Assembly: GCA_016280725.1 (NCBI GenBank)
Contig: JAEEHF010000047.1
Coordinates: forward strand, 1-64,000
Direction: 5' to 3'
DNA length: 64,000 bases
DNA from: Bacillota bacterium
Lineage (GTDB): Bacteria > Bacillota > Clostridia > TANB77 > UBA1234
This document shows positions 11,401 through 63,192 of the stretch, piece by piece. A model generated the notes under the pieces. That model saw only the letters and a list, made by a program, of their open reading frames with translations. It had not been told where the DNA came from and searched no databases. The first letter of the stretch is position 1. Each line of letters starts with the position of its first letter. Made by a program: the position numbers and the translations under genes.

Positions 11401-11580
11401 TGACCAGGTTTTTGGGGACACGACGGTCATACCTGCTCACCAGGTTTTTGGGGACAGGTCATTGAAGCATTATTTACTGGCTTCAATGACCTGTCCCCAA
11501 AAGAGAAAAAATTCTCCTGAATGTCGTGTCCCCAAAAGAGAAAAAATTCTCCCGAATGTCGTGTCCCCAAAGGAGAAATT
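11401..11580. repeat. REP-like cluster A with a 49-base central hairpin
   Basis: Left arm: units ending in TTTTTGGGGACACGAC with a CCTGCTCACCAGG hairpin spacer. Right arm: units of the reverse orientation (GTCGTGTCCCC) with GAGAAAAAATTCTC hairpin spacers. The centre (11450-11498) is a perfect 19-bp hairpin opening with GGGGACAGGTC and closing with GACCTGTCCCC. It matches the design of the transposase-bearing element at 37824-38948 and is probably a non-autonomous form. Confidence 0.85.
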
Positions 11581-18896: not shown

Positions 18897-18969
18897 TTTA
18901 TCTTCCTCCTTTATTCTTATTATATGATATCAAACTTTCTAAAATGAGAAAAGTGAAACTTTTGAAGAA

Positions 18970-19248
18970 GGTTTTTGGGGACACGACAGTCAGACCTGGT
19001 GACCAGGTTTTTGGGGACACGACGGTCAGACCTGGTGACCTGGTTTTTGGGGACACGACGGTCAGGGTTGAAAAACGAGAAAAAGGGGACATGTCATTAG
19101 AGCATTTCTTGCATTCTTTAGTGACCTGTCCCTAAAGGAGAAGAAATTCTCCCGAATGTCGTGTCCCCAAAGGAGAAGAAATTCTCCCGAATGTCGTGTC
19201 CCCAAAGGAGAAAAAATTCTCCCGAATGTCGTGTCCCCAAAGGAGAAG
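18970..19248. repeat. REP-like cluster B with central hairpin
   Basis: Three left-arm units (TTTTTGGGGACACGAC plus CCTGGTGACCAGG-type spacers) are followed by a central hairpin at 19085-19132 (GGGGACATGTCATTA...TAGTGACCTGTCCC). Right-arm units of the opposite orientation have GAGAA...TTCTC spacers. Same plan as cluster A. Open frames crossing it are repeat artefacts. Confidence 0.85.
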
Positions 19249-32549: not shown

Positions 32550-32609
32550 AGCCTTAAAATGCCAAATTTTCGCAAAGTTAGTCTACCACAAAATCGGCCT
32601 TTATTCAAC

Positions 32610-32912
32610 AGGTTTTTGGGGACACGACGGTTAGACCTGGTCACAAGGTTTTTGGGGACACGACGGTCACACCTGCTCACCAGGTTTTCGGGGACACGGT
32701 TTTTGGGGACACGACGGTCACACCTGCTCACCAGGTTTTTGGGGACACGACGGTCACACCTGGTCACAAGGTTTTCGGGGACACGACGGTTAGACCTGGT
32801 CAGCAGGTTTAAGTGTCGTGTCCCCAAAAGAGAAAAAATTCTCCCGAATGTCGTGTCCCCAAAAGAGAAAAAATTCTCCCAAATGTCGTGTCCCCAAAGG
32901 ATCCCCAAAGGA
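32610..32912. repeat. REP-like cluster C, arms without a core
   Basis: At least six units of TTTTTGGGGACACGACGGT with CCTG...CAGG spacers are followed directly by two to three units of the opposite orientation with GAGAAAAAATTCTC spacers. No GGGGACAGGTC centre is present, unlike the other clusters. Several spurious frames cross it on both strands. Confidence 0.85.
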
Positions 32913-37823: not shown

Positions 37824-38948
37824 CTTTCTCCTTTGGGGACACGACATTCGGGAGAATTTTTTCTCCTTCGGGGACACGACATTTGGGAGAATTTTTTCTC
37901 CCTTGGGGACACGACATTTGGGAGAATTTTCTCTCCTTCGGGGACAGATCTTTCTCTATTTTTTACTATCTTTTACGTTTTTTCTTTACCTTTTTTGATT
38001 ATGCGATATGCTTAAGGGTACAAAGCTGATTATAATTTATACATTACTAGGAGGAAACATGCCAAGATTAGCAAGAAAAAATATTGAAACCGAATATATT
38101 CACGTTATGGTTCAAGGAGTAAACAAAGAGTACATTTTTGACGATAGAAAACATCTTCTAACCTATTTAAAGCTGATAAAGGAAAATATAAAGCCTGAAA
38201 GCTTTTCTCTTATTGCATATTGCATGATGTCCAACCATGCTCATTTTCTATTCTATGTGTGTGATATCATTTCATTTGAAAAATATATGCATAAAATTAA
38301 TCAACATTTTGCTCAAATATATAATTATGACAAAAATCGTGTGGGAGTTGTTTTTAGAAACAGGTATCGCGTTGAACCAGTTTGTAGCGAAGAATATATT
38401 ATTAATTGTATCAATTACATTCATGACAATCCTGTGGAGGCTAGGATGGTTGAAAGACGTGAAGACTACCCCTATTCATCATTCAGAGAATATTTGAATA
38501 AAACTGGTGTATCACAAAATGAGATTGTCAAAAGACTAGTAAATTATGAGTTCATTTGTTCACAGCCGGTTGAAACTATGACAAAACGAATATTTATGGA
38601 TGTAGAAGAAGCAAACAATAACAATTGTATTTTGTCTGGAATAAAGATTTTCATGAAAAAATATAATAAGAACTGGATTGATATTTTTTGTAATCGTAAA
38701 ACTTTACGACATTTGCTTATATTTTTGAAAAATATATGTAATGCTTCATATAGAGACGTCGGAAAATACCTTGAAATACCTAATAACTCATTAAAATATA
38801 ATCTGAAAGAGCGCAGCTGATCGACCTGTCCCTAAAGGAAAAAAAATTCTCCTGAATGTCGTGTCCCCAAGGGAGAAAAAATTCTCTCGAATGTCGTGTC
38901 CCCAAGGGAGAAAAAATTCTCCCGAATGTCGTGTCCCCAAGGGAGAAA
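37824..38948 (+). mobile_element. REP-associated tyrosine transposase element with repeat arms (cluster D)
   Basis: Left arm (37824-37950) has GGGGACACGACATT units with GGAGAATTTTTTCTCC hairpins, ending GGGGACAGATC. The transposase gene follows. Right arm (38821-38948) begins GACCTGTCCC and continues with opposite-orientation GTCGTGTCCCC units. It lies between the pilD-like gene and the pilin gene. It is the only copy in the window with a coding centre and is the likely autonomous source of clusters A, B, C, E and F. Confidence 0.85.
38059..38820 (+). CDS. REP-associated tyrosine transposase (Y1/HUH family)
   Basis: This 253-residue single-strand DNA transposase of the Y1_Tnp/RAYT family has the metal-binding HUH motif in MMSNHAHFLFYV. 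The catalytic Tyr is in CINYIHDNPVEARMVERRE, and the start is ARKNIETEYIHVMVQGVNKE. The C-terminus (ASYRDVGKYLEIPNNSLKY) resembles a DNA-binding HTH. The ATG at 38059 is chosen because of GGAGG a few bases upstream. RAYTs act on hairpin repeats next to short guide sequences. Here the gene is bracketed by such repeats, so those are its probable substrates. Catalytic residues look intact. Confidence 0.9.
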   Translation: MPRLARKNIETEYIHVMVQGVNKEYIFDDRKHLLTYLKLIKENIKPESFSLIAYCMMSNHAHFLFYVCDIISFEKYMHKINQHFAQIYNYDKNRVGVVFRNRYRVEPVCSEEYIINCINYIHDNPVEARMVERREDYPYSSFREYLNKTGVSQNEIVKRLVNYEFICSQPVETMTKRIFMDVEEANNNNCILSGIKIFMKKYNKNWIDIFCNRKTLRHLLIFLKNICNASYRDVGKYLEIPNNSLKYNLKERS

Positions 38949-51489: not shown

Positions 51490-51957
51490 TGACCAGGTTT
51501 TTGGGGACACGACATTTAGGAGAAAAATTTCTCCTTTGGGGACACGACATTTGGGAGAAAAAATTCTCCTTTGGGGACACGACATTTGGGAGAAAAAATT
51601 CTCCTTTGGGGACACGACGGTTACACCTGCTCACCAGGTTTTTGGGGACACGACGATCACACCTGCTCACCAGGTTTTTTGGGACAGGTCTCAGAAGTTT
51701 ATTTTGATTTTTCGAAAAAAAGATTATTGTTAAGGCATTTAAAAAGACATCTTCTCTTTTCAGTATTGAGGCCGAAAGAAGAATGTCTTCCGTATTTTCT
51801 CTATTAGTTAATTTAATAATACATTTTGAAAACTCTAGTGAGCAGGTGTGACTGTCGTGTCCCCAAAAACCTGGTGAGCAGGTGTGATCGTCGTGTCCCC
51901 AAAAACCTGGTGAGCAGGTGTGACCGTCGTGTCCCCAAAAACCTGGTCCCCAAAAGT
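51490..51957. mobile_element. Repeat cluster E: REP arms around a ~147-base non-coding core
   Basis: Left arm 51490-51690 mixes GGAGAAAAAATTCTCC and CCTGCTCACCAGG spacers and ends GGGACAGGTC. The core (51691-51837) contains AAAGACATCTTCTCTTTTCAG, complementary to CGAAAGAAGAATGTCTT. Right arm 51838-51957 runs in the opposite orientation (GTCGTGTCCCC). The core is clearly related to that of cluster F. The right arm ends just before the tRNA-Leu promoter. It is probably a non-autonomous relative of the 37824 element. Confidence 0.85.
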
Positions 51958-56431: not shown

Positions 56432-56748
56432 CCCACCAGGTTTTTGGGGACACGACGGTCGCACCTGCTCACCAGGTTTTCGGGGACACGACGGTCATAC
56501 CTGCTCACCAGGTTTTTGGGGACAGGTCTCAAGAAGATTCTTTTGATTTTCAAAAGAAAAGATTATTGTTAAGACATTAAAAAAGACATCCTCCATTTTC
56601 GGTATATAGTCTGAAAGAAGAATGTCTTCAGTTATTTCTCTATTAGTAGAATCTATACCAGATTTTAAAACTTTATGTGCAGGTCTAACCGTCGTGTCCC
56701 CAAAAACCTGGTGAGCAGGTGTGACCGTCGTGTCCCCAAAAACCTGGT
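56432..56748. mobile_element. Repeat cluster F: REP arms around a ~150-base non-coding core
   Basis: Left arm 56432-56528 has CCTGCTCACCAGG spacers and ends GGGGACAGGTC. The core (56529-56675) shares long blocks with cluster E, such as AAAGATTATTGTTAAG, AAAAAGACATC and GAAAGAAGAATGTCTTC. Right arm 56676-56748 is of opposite orientation. The inner segments can fold through AAGACAT/ATGTCTT. It is a non-autonomous element of the same family. Confidence 0.85.
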
Positions 56749-56797
56749 TGACTTTTAGAAGCGAATGATGATACTATTTGAAAGAATGGAGGCAAAA

Positions 56798-57340
56798 ATG
56801 ATAAAAGTAATTGCTTTTGATATGGGTGGAGTGCTAATAACAGAAAAAGATATTTCACTTTCCCCTCTTGAAAATGAAATTGAACGAACTTTTGGAAGAA
56901 ATAATAGCGATGAAGAATTTGTAAACAATCTTTCATACCTAAAAAAATCAAAAGATCAAATATTAAGAAAAGCCAAGAAAATAATTTTTAAACTATACGA
57001 GATAAAATACCCAAATCTTTTTAACGAAATAAAAAACATCAACCCAGATATAAAAATCTGTATAGCAACGAATCATATTACCGCTATAAAAGAGTATATT
57101 GAAAAATCTTTTGACATGAACCTAATTAATAACGTTTTTATATCAGCCGAAATGCATGTTTCAAAACCAGATGTATTGTTCTACAAAAAAATACTTCAAG
57201 AACTACAATGTGAACCACATGAACTATTATTTGTTGATGACAGAGCAGAAAATACAAGCTCTGCAGAAAGTCTTGGGATTCAAACAATACTATTAAATAA
57301 AGAATCAAACTTACTTGATGAAATAAAAAAATGTATATAA
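56798..57340 (+). CDS. HAD-superfamily hydrolase
   Basis: This 180-residue phosphatase-like protein has motif I IAFDMGGVLI (Asp nucleophile), motif II CIATNH, a Lys in SKPDVLFYKKIL and motif IV LLFVDDRAENTSSAESLG. A GDAC-type substrate cannot be assigned. The ATG at 56798 is chosen because GGAGG lies upstream. It starts 50 bases after repeat cluster F and converges on the peptidase gene. Confidence 0.85.
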   Translation: MIKVIAFDMGGVLITEKDISLSPLENEIERTFGRNNSDEEFVNNLSYLKKSKDQILRKAKKIIFKLYEIKYPNLFNEIKNINPDIKICIATNHITAIKEYIEKSFDMNLINNVFISAEMHVSKPDVLFYKKILQELQCEPHELLFVDDRAENTSSAESLGIQTILLNKESNLLDEIKKCI

Positions 57341-57375
57341 AAAAACGGAACACTAAACTCGTGTTCCGCTTTTAT
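57341..57375. terminator. Bidirectional terminator between the HAD and C39-like genes
   Basis: CGGAACAC/GTGTTCCG stem with A- and T-rich flanks on both sides. It overlaps the last codons of the peptidase gene by a few bases. Confidence 0.8.
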
Positions 57376-57965
57376 TTACCTGATTCCTGACCTATTGGTA
57401 TTTCGAGCACCCAACTTCCAAATGAAACCAAAGCATCAATAATTGTTTTCTTGGGAATAGATGAAAGATGAATCATTGTCTTTCCTGGATTTGCAACAAG
57501 AAAACTTCTTTCATCATAACCAATCAGTACTATAAAATGTCCACCTGAAAAACTAGCATCATTGTGTATAATGCTTGATGCAACATTTAAAAGAAATATA
57601 CTATTCTTTGACAACCTTCGCTCTAAATATTGGCACGTAACCTTCTTTTCGGTAATCAAATCTCCACTATAATTGCAGTAATTGTCCAATTTGATAAATC
57701 CTTCAAATTCAAGTTCTCCATCTTTTTTATACCAAATATAGTCTTTATACAGTCGACTTCTGTAGCACGATAGTCTTGCATCAACACCTAGTTTATTTCT
57801 AATAAATAATGCAATATCTGTCATCCATTGTAATTGATATGGTATCTCAACTTCTACTTTAAGAATCTTTTCCAAAAACAAGATACATGCTGGGCCGCAT
57901 AACATATTTGCTGGCTTTTTTATTCCCTTTAGCTTTTCTATCCTCTCCATCAAAAAACATTTCAT
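57372..57965 (-). CDS. C39-like cysteine peptidase, possible RiPP leader peptidase
   Basis: This 197-residue soluble protein has a papain-like pattern of the C39 type. Probable nucleophile C23 lies in NMLCGPACILFLEKIL, His143 in FSGGHFIVLIGYD, and the third position is Asn159 in VANPGKT rather than the usual Asp. C39 domains cleave leader peptides, usually as the N-terminal part of ABC exporters; here the domain stands alone without transporter or membrane helices. It overlaps the NTPase gene by four bases. A role in maturing the peptide encoded at 60104 is inferred from position only. Confidence 0.65.
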   Translation of the reverse strand: MKCFLMERIEKLKGIKKPANMLCGPACILFLEKILKVEVEIPYQLQWMTDIALFIRNKLGVDARLSCYRSRLYKDYIWYKKDGELEFEGFIKLDNYCNYSGDLITEKKVTCQYLERRLSKNSIFLLNVASSIIHNDASFSGGHFIVLIGYDERSFLVANPGKTMIHLSSIPKKTIIDALVSFGSWVLEIPIGQESGK

Positions 57966-58567
57966 AGCCTTATCACCTCAAATAAAGATGAAAGCTTTCC
58001 AATAGACTTATCATCATGAAGAGTATCTATAATCGGAATCCCGCATTTACTGTATTCCAAGAATACATTTCTCATTTCTGGAATCAATTCTATTTCATCC
58101 ATCAAGACTATTGCTCTCCTGCCATGTAAAAAGGAAAGCATGACTGTCAGTTCTTGCAGCACCAGATACTTATAGTACATTCTGATTCTTTCCCGCTCAA
58201 CCAAATCTTCTGTATCATATCCTTCTTCGAGGTATCTAGAAACATCAAAGAGGATAAGTGAAAGATCTTGCTTCTTTTTTAGCAATTCATATGGATATGC
58301 ATTGCTAAAAATTTTAGTTCCATAACAAATTGATTTTTTCTGAGGTGATTCAATAACCTCTGCTCCATCATAAGACTCTTTCATATAAACTAAAAAAGAT
58401 TTATCTTTATGATCAGTGGCGCTATCAAATACTATAATAGTGTCGAATCTTTCCCTAAATAATGATACAACTTTTTTTAGGATAGTCGTTTTTCCCGAAT
58501 CACGTTTTCCAATGATTATATGTGGGGCATACAAAAACCGAGTAAAATCACCATTGTAATATTCCAT
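57962..58567 (-). CDS. P-loop NTPase of unknown family
   Basis: This 201-residue protein has Walker A IIIGKRDSGKTT (Lys26) and Walker B RRAIVLMDEIE (Asp157-Glu158). The following segment ends in TLHDD. The GKRxSGKTT form with a strand just before recalls FtsK/HerA or A32-like packaging ATPases, but the match is too short to assign. No membrane helix. It is translationally coupled to the C39-like peptidase and separated by a terminator hairpin from the radical SAM gene. It may power export, unfolding or peptide handling. Confidence 0.65.
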   Translation of the reverse strand: MEYYNGDFTRFLYAPHIIIGKRDSGKTTILKKVVSLFRERFDTIIVFDSATDHKDKSFLVYMKESYDGAEVIESPQKKSICYGTKIFSNAYPYELLKKKQDLSLILFDVSRYLEEGYDTEDLVERERIRMYYKYLVLQELTVMLSFLHGRRAIVLMDEIELIPEMRNVFLEYSKCGIPIIDTLHDDKSIGKLSSLFEVIRL

Positions 58568-58594
58568 GTTCTTACACTCCCTTGATTTTTTCTC

Positions 58595-58636
58595 AAAAAC
58601 AAAAGATACGTGAAGAATCGGCCTTCACGTATCTTT
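58595..58636 (-). terminator. Terminator between the radical SAM gene and the NTPase gene
   Basis: A 14-bp stem AAAGATACGTGAAG/CTTCACGTATCTTT is followed by TTGTTTTT on the minus strand. Leaky termination would lower expression of the NTPase and peptidase. Confidence 0.85.
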
Positions 58637-58650
58637 GTTTTTAGCACAAG

Positions 58651-59988
58651 TTAGTTATTCAAGACATTCTGACGAATCCATTCATCAAAAAGGAACAAGA
58701 ATATCTGCTTACGATCAGCACAGCTAGGATCCTCCCTGTAGACCGTGCCAAACTCGCCAAACGCAGAATAGCAACATGAACAGCACATAGACCGGAACAT
58801 ACACTTACTACATGCAGGAATATCCTTAGCAGTGCGAGACTTAAGCTTAACAACCCAATCCTTGGAAAGCATTTGCTTGAGGGTTTCCTGAAGAATGTTA
58901 CCCATCACAAAGCTTTGCTCTCCTTTGAAACCATCACACGGGAAAACATCTCCATTGGGATTAACAGAGATCACCTCTCTGGCCGCACCACACGGATATC
59001 TCATGCAAATGTAATCGCGAATCGGTGTGTAAACATTTTCCTCAAAAATGTGAATAGAAAAGTTTTCAACACCAACTTCTTTACTGCGATAATACATCTG
59101 CCTGTAGCATTCTGCCCATTCGCCCTTTTTGGTGGTAGTATTATTCTCAAGCTCACGACCCAACTTATTAGCCGGCCTCGGCTTAAAACTAATACCATTT
59201 TCTGCGAAGAAATCAACCACTTCTTTCGGGAACATGCAGTTATGCTGACCAACCGTGCAAACGGCACCATCAACTTCAAGGCCACCAGCTTTGAGACGAC
59301 CAATGCCTGCCATGATGTCATCAAACGCGCCCGTGCCATCAGCACGAACTCGAAGCTGATCTGTCATCTGCTTGGGTCCGTCCAGACTAACACCAACTTT
59401 AATATCATACTTCTTAGCAAGCTCGATAAACTTATCATCAATAAGAGTGCAATTGGTAACAGTACGATACTGAACCCGTTTCCCATACTTATCTTTCAGA
59501 GACTCAGAAATTTCAATAAAGCGTCTCATGCCATCAACATAACAAAGCGGCTCACCACCCTGCAACTCAAAGGTTACAAGAGGCGTCGGCATTTCAAACA
59601 TTTGCTCGATCAAGCGCCGCATAACGTCTTCAGTCATGTATTCGCCCTTCACGGGTCCGCAATCTGCAAAGCAATACTTGCAGCGAAGATTACAAGTAGT
59701 AGTAATATTCACCACAACAACGCTAGGAAACTCTTCCGGCTGAGGGAAGTCATAAGTGACAAGTTCTCCCTGATCATCCAAAGCCAAGGCTCTCATGTAC
59801 AAGGCTTCCATCTCAAGTTCATTGAGTTCGTCATTATCATAGCGCTTGATATCAGCTTCGTCAAAAACCATCCAAGAGCCAATTTCCTCGTTAAGAAGAA
59901 TAGTAAACAGATGTCCATCAACATTACGGGTAATACGCCGAAGGCCCGGCATTTTTTGATAGGAACTACTCATCCAAGGTGAACGCAT
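58651..59988 (-). CDS. Radical SAM/SPASM peptide maturase
   Basis: This 445-residue radical S-adenosylmethionine enzyme has its [4Fe-4S] cluster motif at C99-N-L-R-C-K-Y-C106. The N-terminal 90 residues (HLFTILLNEEIGSWMVFDE) may form a peptide-recognition domain. A C-terminal SPASM region holds C333, C351, C393, C396 and further Cys to C423 (CSKCMFRSMCCSCC), fitting two auxiliary clusters. Such enzymes crosslink or epimerise ribosomal peptides. The ATG at 59988 follows GGAGGAG; the longer frame starts inside a terminator hairpin. G+C (near 45-57% in counted lines) exceeds that of neighbours. The 56-residue gene upstream is the probable substrate. Confidence 0.85.
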   Translation of the reverse strand: MRSPWMSSSYQKMPGLRRITRNVDGHLFTILLNEEIGSWMVFDEADIKRYDNDELNELEMEALYMRALALDDQGELVTYDFPQPEEFPSVVVVNITTTCNLRCKYCFADCGPVKGEYMTEDVMRRLIEQMFEMPTPLVTFELQGGEPLCYVDGMRRFIEISESLKDKYGKRVQYRTVTNCTLIDDKFIELAKKYDIKVGVSLDGPKQMTDQLRVRADGTGAFDDIMAGIGRLKAGGLEVDGAVCTVGQHNCMFPKEVVDFFAENGISFKPRPANKLGRELENNTTTKKGEWAECYRQMYYRSKEVGVENFSIHIFEENVYTPIRDYICMRYPCGAAREVISVNPNGDVFPCDGFKGEQSFVMGNILQETLKQMLSKDWVVKLKSRTAKDIPACSKCMFRSMCCSCCYSAFGEFGTVYREDPSCADRKQIFLFLFDEWIRQNVLNN

Positions 59989-60016
59989 TCTCTGATTCTC
60001 CTCCTTCTTATTTAAC

Positions 60017-60056
60017 CTCAAAAAAGAAGAATGCACTTCTTCAATGCATTCTTCTT
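60017..60056 (-). terminator. Attenuating terminator between precursor and maturase genes
   Basis: A 12-bp stem AAGAAGAATGCA/TGCATTCTTCTT is followed by TTTTTTG on the minus strand, 30 bases before the maturase ribosome site. This is typical where a precursor peptide must exceed its enzyme. Confidence 0.85.
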
Positions 60057-60103
60057 AAGTAGGTCGCTCTAGTAATCAAGAAACCAGTACGGCAAACTTG
60101 AGA

Positions 60104-60274
60104 TTACTTGTGAGTGTGGGTGCCACACCCGTCGTATCCCTGGCCATACTTCCCGGTGAACTTAAGAACAGACTTCTTGGTCTTCTTCTTAGTGTCCACC
60201 GACACCTCGGCTTTGAGACCATCAACACGGTCATTCCGAGCCGGCGCGGAGCAAGACGAATTCCTCTTCTCCAT
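60104..60274 (-). CDS. Putative RiPP precursor peptide (56 residues)
   Basis: The frame starts at ATG 60274, six bases after AAAGGAGG. The N-terminal 40 residues are charged and leader-like (KAEVSVDTKKKTKKSVLKF). They are followed by a Gly/Tyr-rich C-terminus, YGQGYDGCGTHTHK, with a single core Cys50 and two His; another Cys is at position 8. Such a core suits thioether or C-C crosslinks by a SPASM enzyme. It is about 53% G+C in a counted 60-base line. A longer shadow frame covers the same DNA in another register. No named RiPP class was recognised. It has its own promoter, leader dyad and terminator. Confidence 0.7.
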   Translation of the reverse strand: MEKRNSSCSAPARNDRVDGLKAEVSVDTKKKTKKSVLKFTGKYGQGYDGCGTHTHK

Positions 60275-60311
60275 GGTAATCCTCCTTTCAAATACATTGA
60301 TACGAGAACCT

Positions 60312-60329
60312 GTCTAAAATGATTTAGAC
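60312..60329. promoter_or_regulatory. Perfect 7-bp dyad in the precursor leader
   Basis: GTCTAAA-ATGA-TTTAGAC lies just downstream of the precursor promoter and about 38 bases before its start codon. It could be a repressor operator or a leader hairpin. Confidence 0.5.
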
Positions 60330-60336
60330 GTGCATT

Positions 60337-60365
60337 ACTTTATCATTATGTATCTGTTATGTCAA
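60337..60365 (-). promoter_or_regulatory. Promoter for the RiPP precursor
   Basis: Minus strand: TTGACA (60365-60360), a 17-base spacer, then TAAAGT (60342-60337). It is divergent from the helD promoter 19 bases away. Confidence 0.7.
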
Positions 60366-60467: not shown

Positions 60468-62495
60468 ATGTTTCATGCCAGCCATGAAGAAAACGCATAT
60501 TTAGATAAAGTCGTTCAAATCATTAAAGGAAAATTGGCTGAAATTATAAGTAGAATCGACAAATATGGAATTTCTATTCATGATAGCAAAAGAAACCTTT
60601 GGGAAAACATTTATGAACTCGATCCTGTAGAAATTGCACAAACCAGGCAAGATATTGAAGCTGAAATAAGCGAAGGGCAACGCGCTGTTAAGGACAAGCA
60701 AAATTTGGAAAGACTACTAGTAAATCCCTATTTTGCTAGAATTGACTTTTTGCAAGATGGTGAAAAGGAACCTGCTTCAATTTACATTGGAATCAGCGCC
60801 CTACTCGACTTAAATCAGCCAGAAGGCCTAGAGATGGTAGTTTACGATTGGCGTGCTCCAATTTCTAGTATGTTTTACGCCTTTGAAACAGGGCCAGCAT
60901 CATTTGAGTCTCCAGAAGGTATAGTCACGGGAAACCTTTCTTTAAAGAGACAATTCAAAATCGAAAATGGTAGAATTGTTTATTACATAGATAGTAGTAC
61001 AACTATCAGTGACGATATCCTTATGGAATGTCTTGCAAAAAGCTCCGCACCGCAGATGCACAATATTGCTTCAACTATCCAGCGTGAACAAAACACTGTT
61101 ATTAGAAGCGATGGTTCCAACAACCTCATAGTACAAGGTGCAGCTGGTTCTGGAAAGACTTCAATTGCACTCCACAGGGCAGCTTATCTTCTATATAAGT
61201 TTGCAGGAAGTATTACAGCGAAAGACATCTTAATCATTTCGCCAAACAAATACTTCACTGAGTACATTTCAAACGTCTTACCTGAGCTCCAAGAAGAGAA
61301 TATTCTAGAATGTGAAGTTAATCAATTAGCTGAATCTGAACTTCCAAGCAACTTTCATTTTGAAGCACCTTGGGAACAAGCTGAGAAACTAATTGAGCGA
61401 CGTGACCTTAAGTATCTTCAAAGAGTTGCCTTTAAATCTTCTTCTGAGTTCTTTCATCTTCTTCGTGCTTTCATTGATAAAATGTGTATAGAATCCTTTA
61501 CTCCAACAGATTTAAGGCTTGGTGACCGTTTTATATCAAAGGAAATGCTTTTAAAGAAATACAACAATTATCAAAAGTATGCTCCACTAGTGCGAGTTAC
61601 CAAGATTTATGAAGACCTTGTTCAACTTGTCACTGGAGATAGAAGCAGGATTAATAAAGGCAAACTTAAAGAGCTAATCTTTAACATGTTTCATTACAAA
61701 GATTCAATTAGTTTGTATAACCTATTCTTAGAAAGCATCTCGAGAGAAGATATGTTTGTTGTAAGAAAAAGAAACTTTGAATATTCAGATCTTTTCCCTT
61801 TGGCCTACATAAAAGTCAGGATGGAAGGACCATCTAGAACATTCAGAATCAAGCATTTGATAATCGATGAAATGCAGGACTATACACCAGTTTGCTATGC
61901 ACTTATAAATGAACTTTTCAAATGTCCAAAGACTGTTCTAGGAGATATTGCACAATCAGTTACTGGAATAAGTACTACTTTAGATGATATTTCTAGTTCC
62001 TTTGAAAACAGCATTGTGGTTACTCTTAATAAAAGCTATCGTTCTACATCAGAGATAATCGAATTTGCTAAGAAAATAAGTCGAAGGGCAAACAACATTG
62101 AGCCTGTTTTAAGGCATGGTAACAAAGTACAAGTTACCGTATACTCTGATATTAACGCTCATGTCACGCAAGCGATTCAAAAGGCAAAAGCTTCCGGACT
62201 AAGTAGTATTGCAATTATTTGTAAGACTTACAAACAATCCCTTTCTTTGTATGAACAACTAAAAGACAATCCAGACATTTCACACATTACTGAACAAAGA
62301 GACTCTTTTGTAAAAGTTATGCCAATTCAAATGGCAAAGGGTCTTGAATTTGACTCAGTTATAGTTGTTGACTGCGATGATGATAATTATCATACGGAGA
62401 ATGAACGAGATCTTCTTTATGTAGCTTGCACAAGAGCAATGCACAATCTAGAGTTGATTTATTCTGGAAAGCTTACTCGTTTCGTTGAATTATAA
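60468..62495 (+). CDS. helD: HelD-like superfamily 1 helicase / RNA polymerase recycling factor
   Basis: This 675-residue UvrD/Rep-like motor has an N-terminal coiled coil (about residues 1-75) as in HelD, which inserts into RNA polymerase and releases it from DNA. Motif I is IVQGAAGSGKTSIALHRAAYL. Motif II is HLIIDEMQDYTPVCYALI, followed by TVLGDIAQSV; later motifs are LNKSYRSTSEIIEFA and QMAKGLEFDSVIVVD. VYDWRAPISSMFYAFETGPA is a HelD hallmark. GAGGAGG precedes the ATG. It is a single plus-strand gene divergent from the RiPP precursor. Confidence 0.9.
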   Translation: MFHASHEENAYLDKVVQIIKGKLAEIISRIDKYGISIHDSKRNLWENIYELDPVEIAQTRQDIEAEISEGQRAVKDKQNLERLLVNPYFARIDFLQDGEKEPASIYIGISALLDLNQPEGLEMVVYDWRAPISSMFYAFETGPASFESPEGIVTGNLSLKRQFKIENGRIVYYIDSSTTISDDILMECLAKSSAPQMHNIASTIQREQNTVIRSDGSNNLIVQGAAGSGKTSIALHRAAYLLYKFAGSITAKDILIISPNKYFTEYISNVLPELQEENILECEVNQLAESELPSNFHFEAPWEQAEKLIERRDLKYLQRVAFKSSSEFFHLLRAFIDKMCIESFTPTDLRLGDRFISKEMLLKKYNNYQKYAPLVRVTKIYEDLVQLVTGDRSRINKGKLKELIFNMFHYKDSISLYNLFLESISREDMFVVRKRNFEYSDLFPLAYIKVRMEGPSRTFRIKHLIIDEMQDYTPVCYALINELFKCPKTVLGDIAQSVTGISTTLDDISSSFENSIVVTLNKSYRSTSEIIEFAKKISRRANNIEPVLRHGNKVQVTVYSDINAHVTQAIQKAKASGLSSIAIICKTYKQSLSLYEQLKDNPDISHITEQRDSFVKVMPIQMAKGLEFDSVIVVDCDDDNYHTENERDLLYVACTRAMHNLELIYSGKLTRFVEL

Positions 62496-62497
62496 TT

Positions 62498-62528
62498 AAA
62501 AGCACCTCGAAAAATCGAGGTGCTTTTT
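62498..62528. terminator. Bidirectional terminator after helD
   Basis: AAAGCACCTCGA/TCGAGGTGCTTT stem with flanking A and T runs between converging genes. Confidence 0.88.
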
Positions 62529-63156
62529 ACATTAGGTTTGTTAAATATAACATTTTCTTCCACTCTTCATCAGAGATTAAATTATCAGTTGAAGTAATAT
62601 TTAGTTTTTTGATTACTTCAATTTCTCTCTTTGCTTCTTCAAGAGTTGCATCAGGACAATGTACATACTTCAAAAAGAAAGAATCAAATCTTCCTTCTTG
62701 AGAAATATAGCTATCAATCTTGCTAAACTTGTTATTATGAAATGTCCCAAGAAAACCAGGTTCAATATCTGATGCTTTTAGTCCAAGCTTATTAAGATCC
62801 GAAATAATCATAAATGTTCCGTTTCTAGAAGCATTAAGCTTATCTCGAATACACTTTTTCAGGCTCATTATTTCCTCAAGAAGTTCTTCATCCTTTGTTG
62901 AATCTTTTTCTAGAAACCAAACTTGAGCATAATTTCCAAAGATGTACTTAATGAGCCAAATATGTGCTTCAATTTCATCACCAAATAGACTTCCCTTTTT
63001 CTTTATTTCTTCCTTATTCAATTCCAAATGCATTTCATCCCAAGAATAAACATGATACTTACTTACAATCCTAAAACCATGATTAATTGTTTCGCTTTCA
63101 ATATAACTAAGATATCTTAGCCCATCTGGTTTGACTATTAGAATTGAATAGTCCAT
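62527..63156 (-). CDS. Divergent nucleoside diphosphate kinase-like protein
   Basis: This 209-residue protein begins YSILIVKPDGLRYLSYIE, the NDK KPDG motif. It ends with KYVHCPDATLEEAKREIEVI, matching the NDK catalytic His region (HGSDS...AxREI). The middle is expanded and divergent (typical NDKs are about 140 residues), with only a PGFLGTF segment resembling the PGTIRGDF stretch. It may transfer phosphate between nucleotides or use the fold for another purpose. The ATG at 63156 is chosen because of GGAG eight bases upstream. A near-consensus promoter precedes it. Confidence 0.7.
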   Translation of the reverse strand: MDYSILIVKPDGLRYLSYIESETINHGFRIVSKYHVYSWDEMHLELNKEEIKKKGSLFGDEIEAHIWLIKYIFGNYAQVWFLEKDSTKDEELLEEIMSLKKCIRDKLNASRNGTFMIISDLNKLGLKASDIEPGFLGTFHNNKFSKIDSYISQEGRFDSFFLKYVHCPDATLEEAKREIEVIKKLNITSTDNLISDEEWKKMLYLTNLM

Positions 63157-63192
63157 TGCCTTATCTCCTTTCAACAATTACTTTACGTGAAG

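Follow-up and report, generated by a model that had tools for sequence, protein, structure and literature searches.

We found a conserved six-gene cassette in the window, by which we mean the whole 64,000-nt stretch of DNA that was analysed (positions 1 to 64,000 of contig JAEEHF010000047.1, assembly GCA_016280725.1) from an uncultured gut Bacillota. The cassette encodes the precursor of a ribosomally synthesized and post-translationally modified peptide (RiPP), a radical S-adenosylmethionine (SAM)/SPASM maturase, a P-loop NTPase, a free-standing C39-like protein, a HAD protein and a dedicated paralogue of HelD. That this constitutes an unassigned SPASM RiPP family is well supported. We consider it quite possible, if somewhat short of probable, that the product acts on RNA polymerase and that the dedicated HelD protects the producer, and we put forward as a tentative proposal the fuller version, in which a new RiPP class with the core GYDGCGTHTH(K) targets RNA polymerase via its secondary channel and the HelD motor provides self-immunity. 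An initial annotation had described the precursor, maturase, NTPase and C39-like genes, all of which we recovered, but had missed the HelD (60468-62495) and HAD (56765-57340) genes just outside the interval that it covered; the HelD paralogue is the most informative part of the system. The six genes are:

60104-60274, minus strand: RiPP precursor, 56 amino acids (aa), with an NDxVxxLK block in the leader and the C-terminal core KYGQ-GYDGCGTHTHK, conserved in 15 aligned loci
58651-59988, minus strand: radical SAM/SPASM maturase, 445 aa from the ATG at 59988 (the longest frame starts at a GTG at 60036)
60468-62495, plus strand: dedicated paralogue of the RNA polymerase recycling motor HelD, 675 aa, with a long acidic secondary-channel arm and a short clamp arm
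57962-58567, minus strand: P-loop NTPase, 201 aa, with invariant GKTT, DSxTxHxxKS, FDxSxxLE and DExE blocks
57372-57965, minus strand: free-standing C39-like papain-fold protein, 197 aa, with Cys23 and His143, and Asn159 replacing Asp
56765-57340, plus strand: HAD-family protein, 191 aa, with a homologue in 11 of 11 complete Bacilli loci (E 1e-34 to 1e-44)

Using a profile scan of 84,980 species genomes, built from a two-sequence alignment, we recovered 14 clear maturase homologues in metagenome-assembled genomes (MAGs) of Clostridia and Bacilli; a genome scan from a single sequence, whose search patterns lay on variable stretches, returned no match. Together with the window, these homologues make up the 15 aligned loci: L005, from a sheep-rumen Clostridia MAG (G004), with a maturase 85% identical to that of the window, and the 13 Bacilli loci L006-L018 (11 of them complete), with maturases at 55-60% identity in Bacilli/Tenericutes MAGs, several of which carry rabbit or deer isolate names. 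Below these, identity drops to ~30% and generic SPASM enzymes start, mainly SCIFF maturases; matches from L019 on (~26-31% identity), mainly of the SCIFF type, were rejected as family members. At each of the 14 homologous loci a precursor ending ..GYDGCGTHTH(K) lies just 5' of the maturase, and the pairing of a short conserved precursor with an adjacent maturase, a mark of radical SAM/SPASM RiPPs, was thus seen in 15/15 aligned loci.

The precursor frame (60274-60104, minus strand) reads MEKRNSSCSAPARNDRVDGLKAEVSVDTKKKTKKSVLKFTGKYGQGYDGCGTHTHK, ends YGQGYDGCGTHTHK and is preceded by a AAAGGAGG ribosome site before its ATG, as first described. The initial annotation had staked its proposal on this frame, and no different one, being conserved beside homologous maturases, and we indeed found the peptide frame conserved beside all 15 maturases and no other frame conserved. 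Common to the aligned precursors are N-D-x-V-x-x-L-K in the leader and K-x-G-x-G-Y-D-G-C-G-T-H-T-H at the C-terminus; GYDGCGTHTH, with the GYDGCG and two His that had been singled out earlier, is invariant in 15/15, and the last Lys alone varies, being Gly plus a tail in L012. Between the window and L005, the precursor gene as a whole differs at 9, 11 and 32 first, second and third codon positions, the last 16 codons carry changes at 10 of 10 synonymous and 0 of 38 nonsynonymous sites, and both alternative frames are broken by stops in one genome or in both. Hence, silent sites are saturated while the protein core is unchanged, indicating that the peptide frame is the conserved product. Third-position GC content (GC3) is 0.44-0.68 in the precursor and maturase (window 58651-60274; L005 7718-9344), far above that of the NTPase, C39-like and HelD genes and the rest of the window, a pattern that was seen in two genomes with saturated silent sites; high GC3 as a sign of strong expression was not supported, as ribosomal protein S12 of the same genome has a low GC3 (0.19).

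No Pfam or NCBIfam model matched the precursor, which therefore stays unassigned, as had been claimed. In full-text literature, where coverage of radical SAM RiPPs was limited (much of it being subscription-only), the core sequence was not found and none of the titles listed linked HelD to RiPPs; an unnamed network cluster holding this family may already exist in the radical SAM literature. An exact-core search across 395 genomes of the Bacilli class returned only one already-known member.

Both the Radical_SAM and the SPASM domain of Pfam were found in the maturase, confirming its earlier identification. The CxxxCxxC of the radical SAM core and all SPASM cysteines are conserved across the 15 loci, with the SPASM pattern kept as CX12GX4C, CX2CX5CX3C and a final Cys, and the alignment places the start of the protein at MRSPW/MRTPW. 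Among solved structures, the closest by sequence profile was 5wgg, which has a radical SAM domain and which we take to be CteB. In a tree, the maturase forms its own supported clade apart from HxsB and SCIFF enzymes, with deeper branching unresolved, and membership of the Hxs, SCIFF, CbpB, GrrM and sulfatase-maturase families was ruled out by score and tree. In the Bacilli maturases (L006-L018, residues 1-170), an ~80-residue domain before the radical SAM core is tandemly duplicated, and the window and L005 have one copy.

HxsB (TIGR03978) was the best NCBIfam match of the window maturase, N-terminal region included, at 183.9 bits against a cut-off of 370 (167.9 bits for the L013 maturase), and the precursor tail carries a His-x-His motif; however, HxsC, HxsD and HxsA, or a His-Xaa-Ser repeat precursor, are absent from all cassette loci, whereas in named Hxs loci HxsB is accompanied by HxsC and, in most, by HxsD. 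SCIFF/ranthipeptide systems (CteB, PapB) resemble the cassette in SPASM architecture, in a single precursor 5' of the maturase and in having Cys in the core, but the window maturase stays below their cut-offs (TIGR03974, 122.9 versus 425 bits; NF047865, 152.6 versus 340 bits) and in a separate clade, and its precursor has one core Cys versus six in SCIFF. The triceptide/cyclophane maturases (GrrM, XyeB, YhhB, DynA/DarE) are likewise SPASM enzymes, and the window core offers candidate Tyr and His residues; the title of Sugiyama et al. 2022, cited in PMC10885120, names Tyr and His as aromatic partners in three-residue cyclophanes. Yet the cassette has no matching precursor motif, family-level match or dedicated exporter.

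The window HelD passes the curated model NF041464 (518 bits; cut-off 419), matches the B. subtilis structure 6wvk and shares DWR, Walker A/B and a long secondary-channel arm with Class I HelD and HelR proteins, and cassette HelDs throughout retain Walker A, DE[A/M]QD and DWR. It differs from those proteins in being encoded with a RiPP maturase, as a second paralogue with a short clamp arm and no implied housekeeping role. The window genome holds another HelD, of the housekeeping type present in most of its family, on contig C62; both Clostridial carriers have such a housekeeping HelD elsewhere, and cassette-free relatives have the housekeeping HelD only. In all cassette HelDs the N-terminal secondary-channel arm is long and carries a W-[ED]-N..LD..E tip, which is missing from the housekeeping HelD of the window genome, and their clamp arm, measured as the span from GSGKT to DExQD, takes up 237-249 residues versus 280-312 in housekeeping copies of the window's family. 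In the tree, cassette HelDs lie apart from the housekeeping clade, with those of the Bacilli grouping together. Three Bacilli genomes (L111, L112, L113) have a second HelD outside the cassette that is of the same long-arm/short-clamp type and neighbours the cassette clade; no maturase lies beside it in the two inspected (L111 and L112). Previous work showed that the acidic tip of the secondary-channel arm of B. subtilis HelD is needed for protection of RNA polymerase from rifampicin (PMC12802891) and that HelR gives rifampicin resistance in Actinobacteria (PMC10719064). HelD paralogues are widespread among Gram-positives, with the reason for multiple copies an open question, and those of Class I move horizontally (PMC8655204).

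The same six genes occur in 11 of 11 complete Bacilli loci, with the HAD gene upstream in L012 and after a gap in L010. The NTPase and C39-like genes are present in every untruncated locus, and HelD at every locus long enough to show it, either beside the precursor or in the operon: in the Bacilli it lies within the operon, and in the Clostridial loci (window and L005) it is divergent from the precursor, with the maturase, NTPase and C39-like genes following in this order on the opposite strand. The HAD gene of the window is convergent, at the far end of the locus, and is lost or absent in L005; a broken HAD remnant with 3 internal stops and 38% identity to the window HAD was seen in a cassette-free family member (G009:C43:15032-15460, L133). 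Pairwise divergences of the five larger proteins correlate across all pairs (rho 0.69-0.92) and within the Bacilli (rho 0.46-0.87), as expected if the genes travel together, while genes beyond the six differ from locus to locus in those inspected. The cassette is rare and patchy, with carriers making up 11 of 385 sampled genomes in a Bacilli-side order and 2 of 287 in another order, and the window's own family has one other maturase carrier, G004. For both Clostridial genomes, which are MAGs, contamination is estimated at 7-10%; flanking genes common to the window (62527-63177) and L005 (10622-11254) nevertheless argue that the locus belongs to this genus. Window 62527-63177 encodes an uncharacterised protein of ~210 aa (IVKPDGLRYL..), possibly nucleoside-diphosphate-kinase-like; this conserved gene adjoins HelD in the window and, in L005, the C39-like gene.

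The consensus-type promoter, leader dyad and attenuating terminator of the initial annotation were all found, along with a terminator further downstream:

60337-60365, minus strand: precursor promoter, TTGACA-17-TAAAGT with an extended TG (same layout in L005, TTGACA-17-TAATAT)
60312-60329, minus strand: hairpin, GTCTAAA..TTTAGAC, close to where the precursor mRNA is predicted to start
60023-60057, minus strand: attenuating terminator that separates precursor and maturase, consisting of a strong hairpin and a U-run, z -3.56 (L005 also has a hairpin with a U-run)
58602-58636, minus strand: terminator after the maturase and before the NTPase, z -4.43, terminator-like on both strands (equivalent in L005)

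At the place of the leader dyad, L005 carries GTCGAA..TTCGAC, with both arms of different sequence, indicating that the structure and not the sequence is conserved. In all 13 Bacilli loci, a near-invariant CCTATGTTGTGT followed by a GGAGG ribosome site stands 10-40 nt before the maturase start (L013 7975-8005); this element gave neither a consensus fold nor an Rfam match and is absent from the window, which has the terminator in that place. Rfam returned no RNA match.

The remaining proteins also bore out their first descriptions. The NTPase has intact Walker motifs and an AlphaFold2 model with a generic P-loop fold (predicted local distance difference test, pLDDT, 87), and no curated NCBIfam or Pfam family scored above cut-off, nor was a close family found. 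Among 13 homologues of the C39-like protein, none departs from Cys23 or His143, and 11 have Asn for Asp at position 159. The AlphaFold2 model of the window protein is a confident papain-like fold (pLDDT 92); of solved structures it came closest, though with modest TM-scores, to 3erv (a putative C39-like peptidase), phytochelatin synthase and the peptidase domain of PCAT1. The protein thus presents the catalytic Cys and His of C39 peptidases in a papain fold, but has Asn or another residue at 159 for Asp, no conserved Gln before the Cys and a Pfam score of 21.0 against a cut-off of 24 bits. Asn is compatible with activity in papain-type enzymes. PCAT/C39 leader peptidases and PoyH-type free-standing RiPP proteases share the papain-like fold with Cys and His, whereas the cassette protein has no ABC transporter and Asn for Asp, and the precursor has no double-Gly site. 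RiPP clusters with free-standing protease genes have been described (PMC10885120).

Elsewhere in the window, a dispersed 36-nt repeat unit, GTCGTGTCCCCAAAAACCTGGTGAGCAGGTGTGACC, gave 20 matches versus 0 expected (11403-11460, 18966-19059, 32607-32787, 51492-51947 and 56435-56748), including two inverted arrays around ~140-nt spacers at 51.5-51.9 kb and 56.4-56.7 kb. These look like REP-type elements, and the enzyme that matches them may be encoded by a transposase-like frame at 38008-38820 (PRLARKNIETEYIHVMVQGVNKEYIF).

We propose that the precursor would be made in excess of the maturase, because a terminator lies between them, and that the maturase would recognise the leader and probably put at least one cross-link on the core, for which Cys50, Tyr47, Asp48, His53 and His55 are the candidate residues. 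Trimming of the leader near the Gly-rich junction K-x-G-x-G may fall to the C39-like cysteine protein, with help from the NTPase and the HAD protein. The modified peptide would then act on RNA polymerase, with the secondary channel or the active centre as the likeliest site, and the long acidic arm of HelD could enter the secondary channel and displace the peptide or rescue the polymerase, thereby protecting the producer. As grounds for this target and this protection we take the arm architecture of the cassette HelDs and the rifampicin role of the arm tip in B. subtilis. Several points weigh against the proposal. Three non-cassette Bacilli HelDs fall among the cassette HelDs in the tree, so these form no exclusive clade and their single origin is not proven, and the suggested role of HelD with the peptide is a matter of guilt by association. 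Peptidase activity of the C39-like protein is uncertain, because no oxyanion Gln is apparent and residue 159 is not always Asn. Cofactors and signals, more typically than diversifying bacteriocins, have a core that hardly varies, and neither a recurring exporter, transporter or regulator nor a dedicated exporter or PCAT, as in bacteriocin/lantibiotic-type operons, was found in the operon or flanking genes of the loci inspected, which is odd for a secreted antibiotic.

It is the fixed core and the lack of an exporter that make an intracellular role the main rival, which we regard as unlikely although it deserves serious weight. The modified peptide would here be a cofactor or regulator of transcription, redox- or metal-responsive through its Cys, two His, Asp and Tyr, and would work with HelD on stalled RNA polymerase. 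Such a role fits a core that is near-invariant across two bacterial classes, six products that all look cytosolic, a HelD that is itself a transcription factor with intact catalytic motifs, and loci that, where inspected, showed no recurrent immunity membrane protein; the patchy spread (11/385; 2/287), however, speaks against a core physiological cofactor, as do cassette-free relatives that have a housekeeping HelD.

Rather improbable is an ordinary RiPP with a target unrelated to RNA polymerase, for which HelD, the NTPase and the HAD protein would be passengers or general helpers of a mobile cassette. While the absence of the HAD gene from L005 illustrates that accessory genes can be lost, and Class I HelD paralogues are in any case common and horizontally mobile (PMC8655204), HelD is found in all untruncated loci, is kept despite a housekeeping copy and a rearranged gene order, and shares its long-arm/short-clamp architecture among cassettes. 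We rate as very improbable a role in phage defence or abortive infection, in which the C39-like protein, once triggered, would free the modified peptide to shut down transcription. The patchy distribution and horizontal spread of this chromosomal cassette would suit it, as would its UvrD-like, peptidase-like and P-loop NTPase genes and the weak PADLOC matches, but these matches are generic (a viperin radical SAM core and a GajB-type UvrD helicase core), neither viral contigs nor phage and plasmid records yielded a relative of the precursor or NTPase or a close relative of the maturase, and no defence islands were seen around the loci inspected. A precursor frame arisen by chance, with a maturase acting on another substrate, has only the small size of the frame and the missing database model in its favour and is refuted by the conservation of frame, position and ribosome site together with the saturated silent changes.

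If the cassette HelD is indeed an immunity factor for a peptide that hits RNA polymerase, the core would represent a compact new ligand of this enzyme, and HelD would serve as a marker for mining further such peptides. A HelD locked to a RiPP cassette moreover makes the question of multiple HelD copies testable. Should the target be another one, the radical SAM peptide family would still be uncatalogued and its core unusually fixed, and the system is small enough for reconstitution with synthetic genes.

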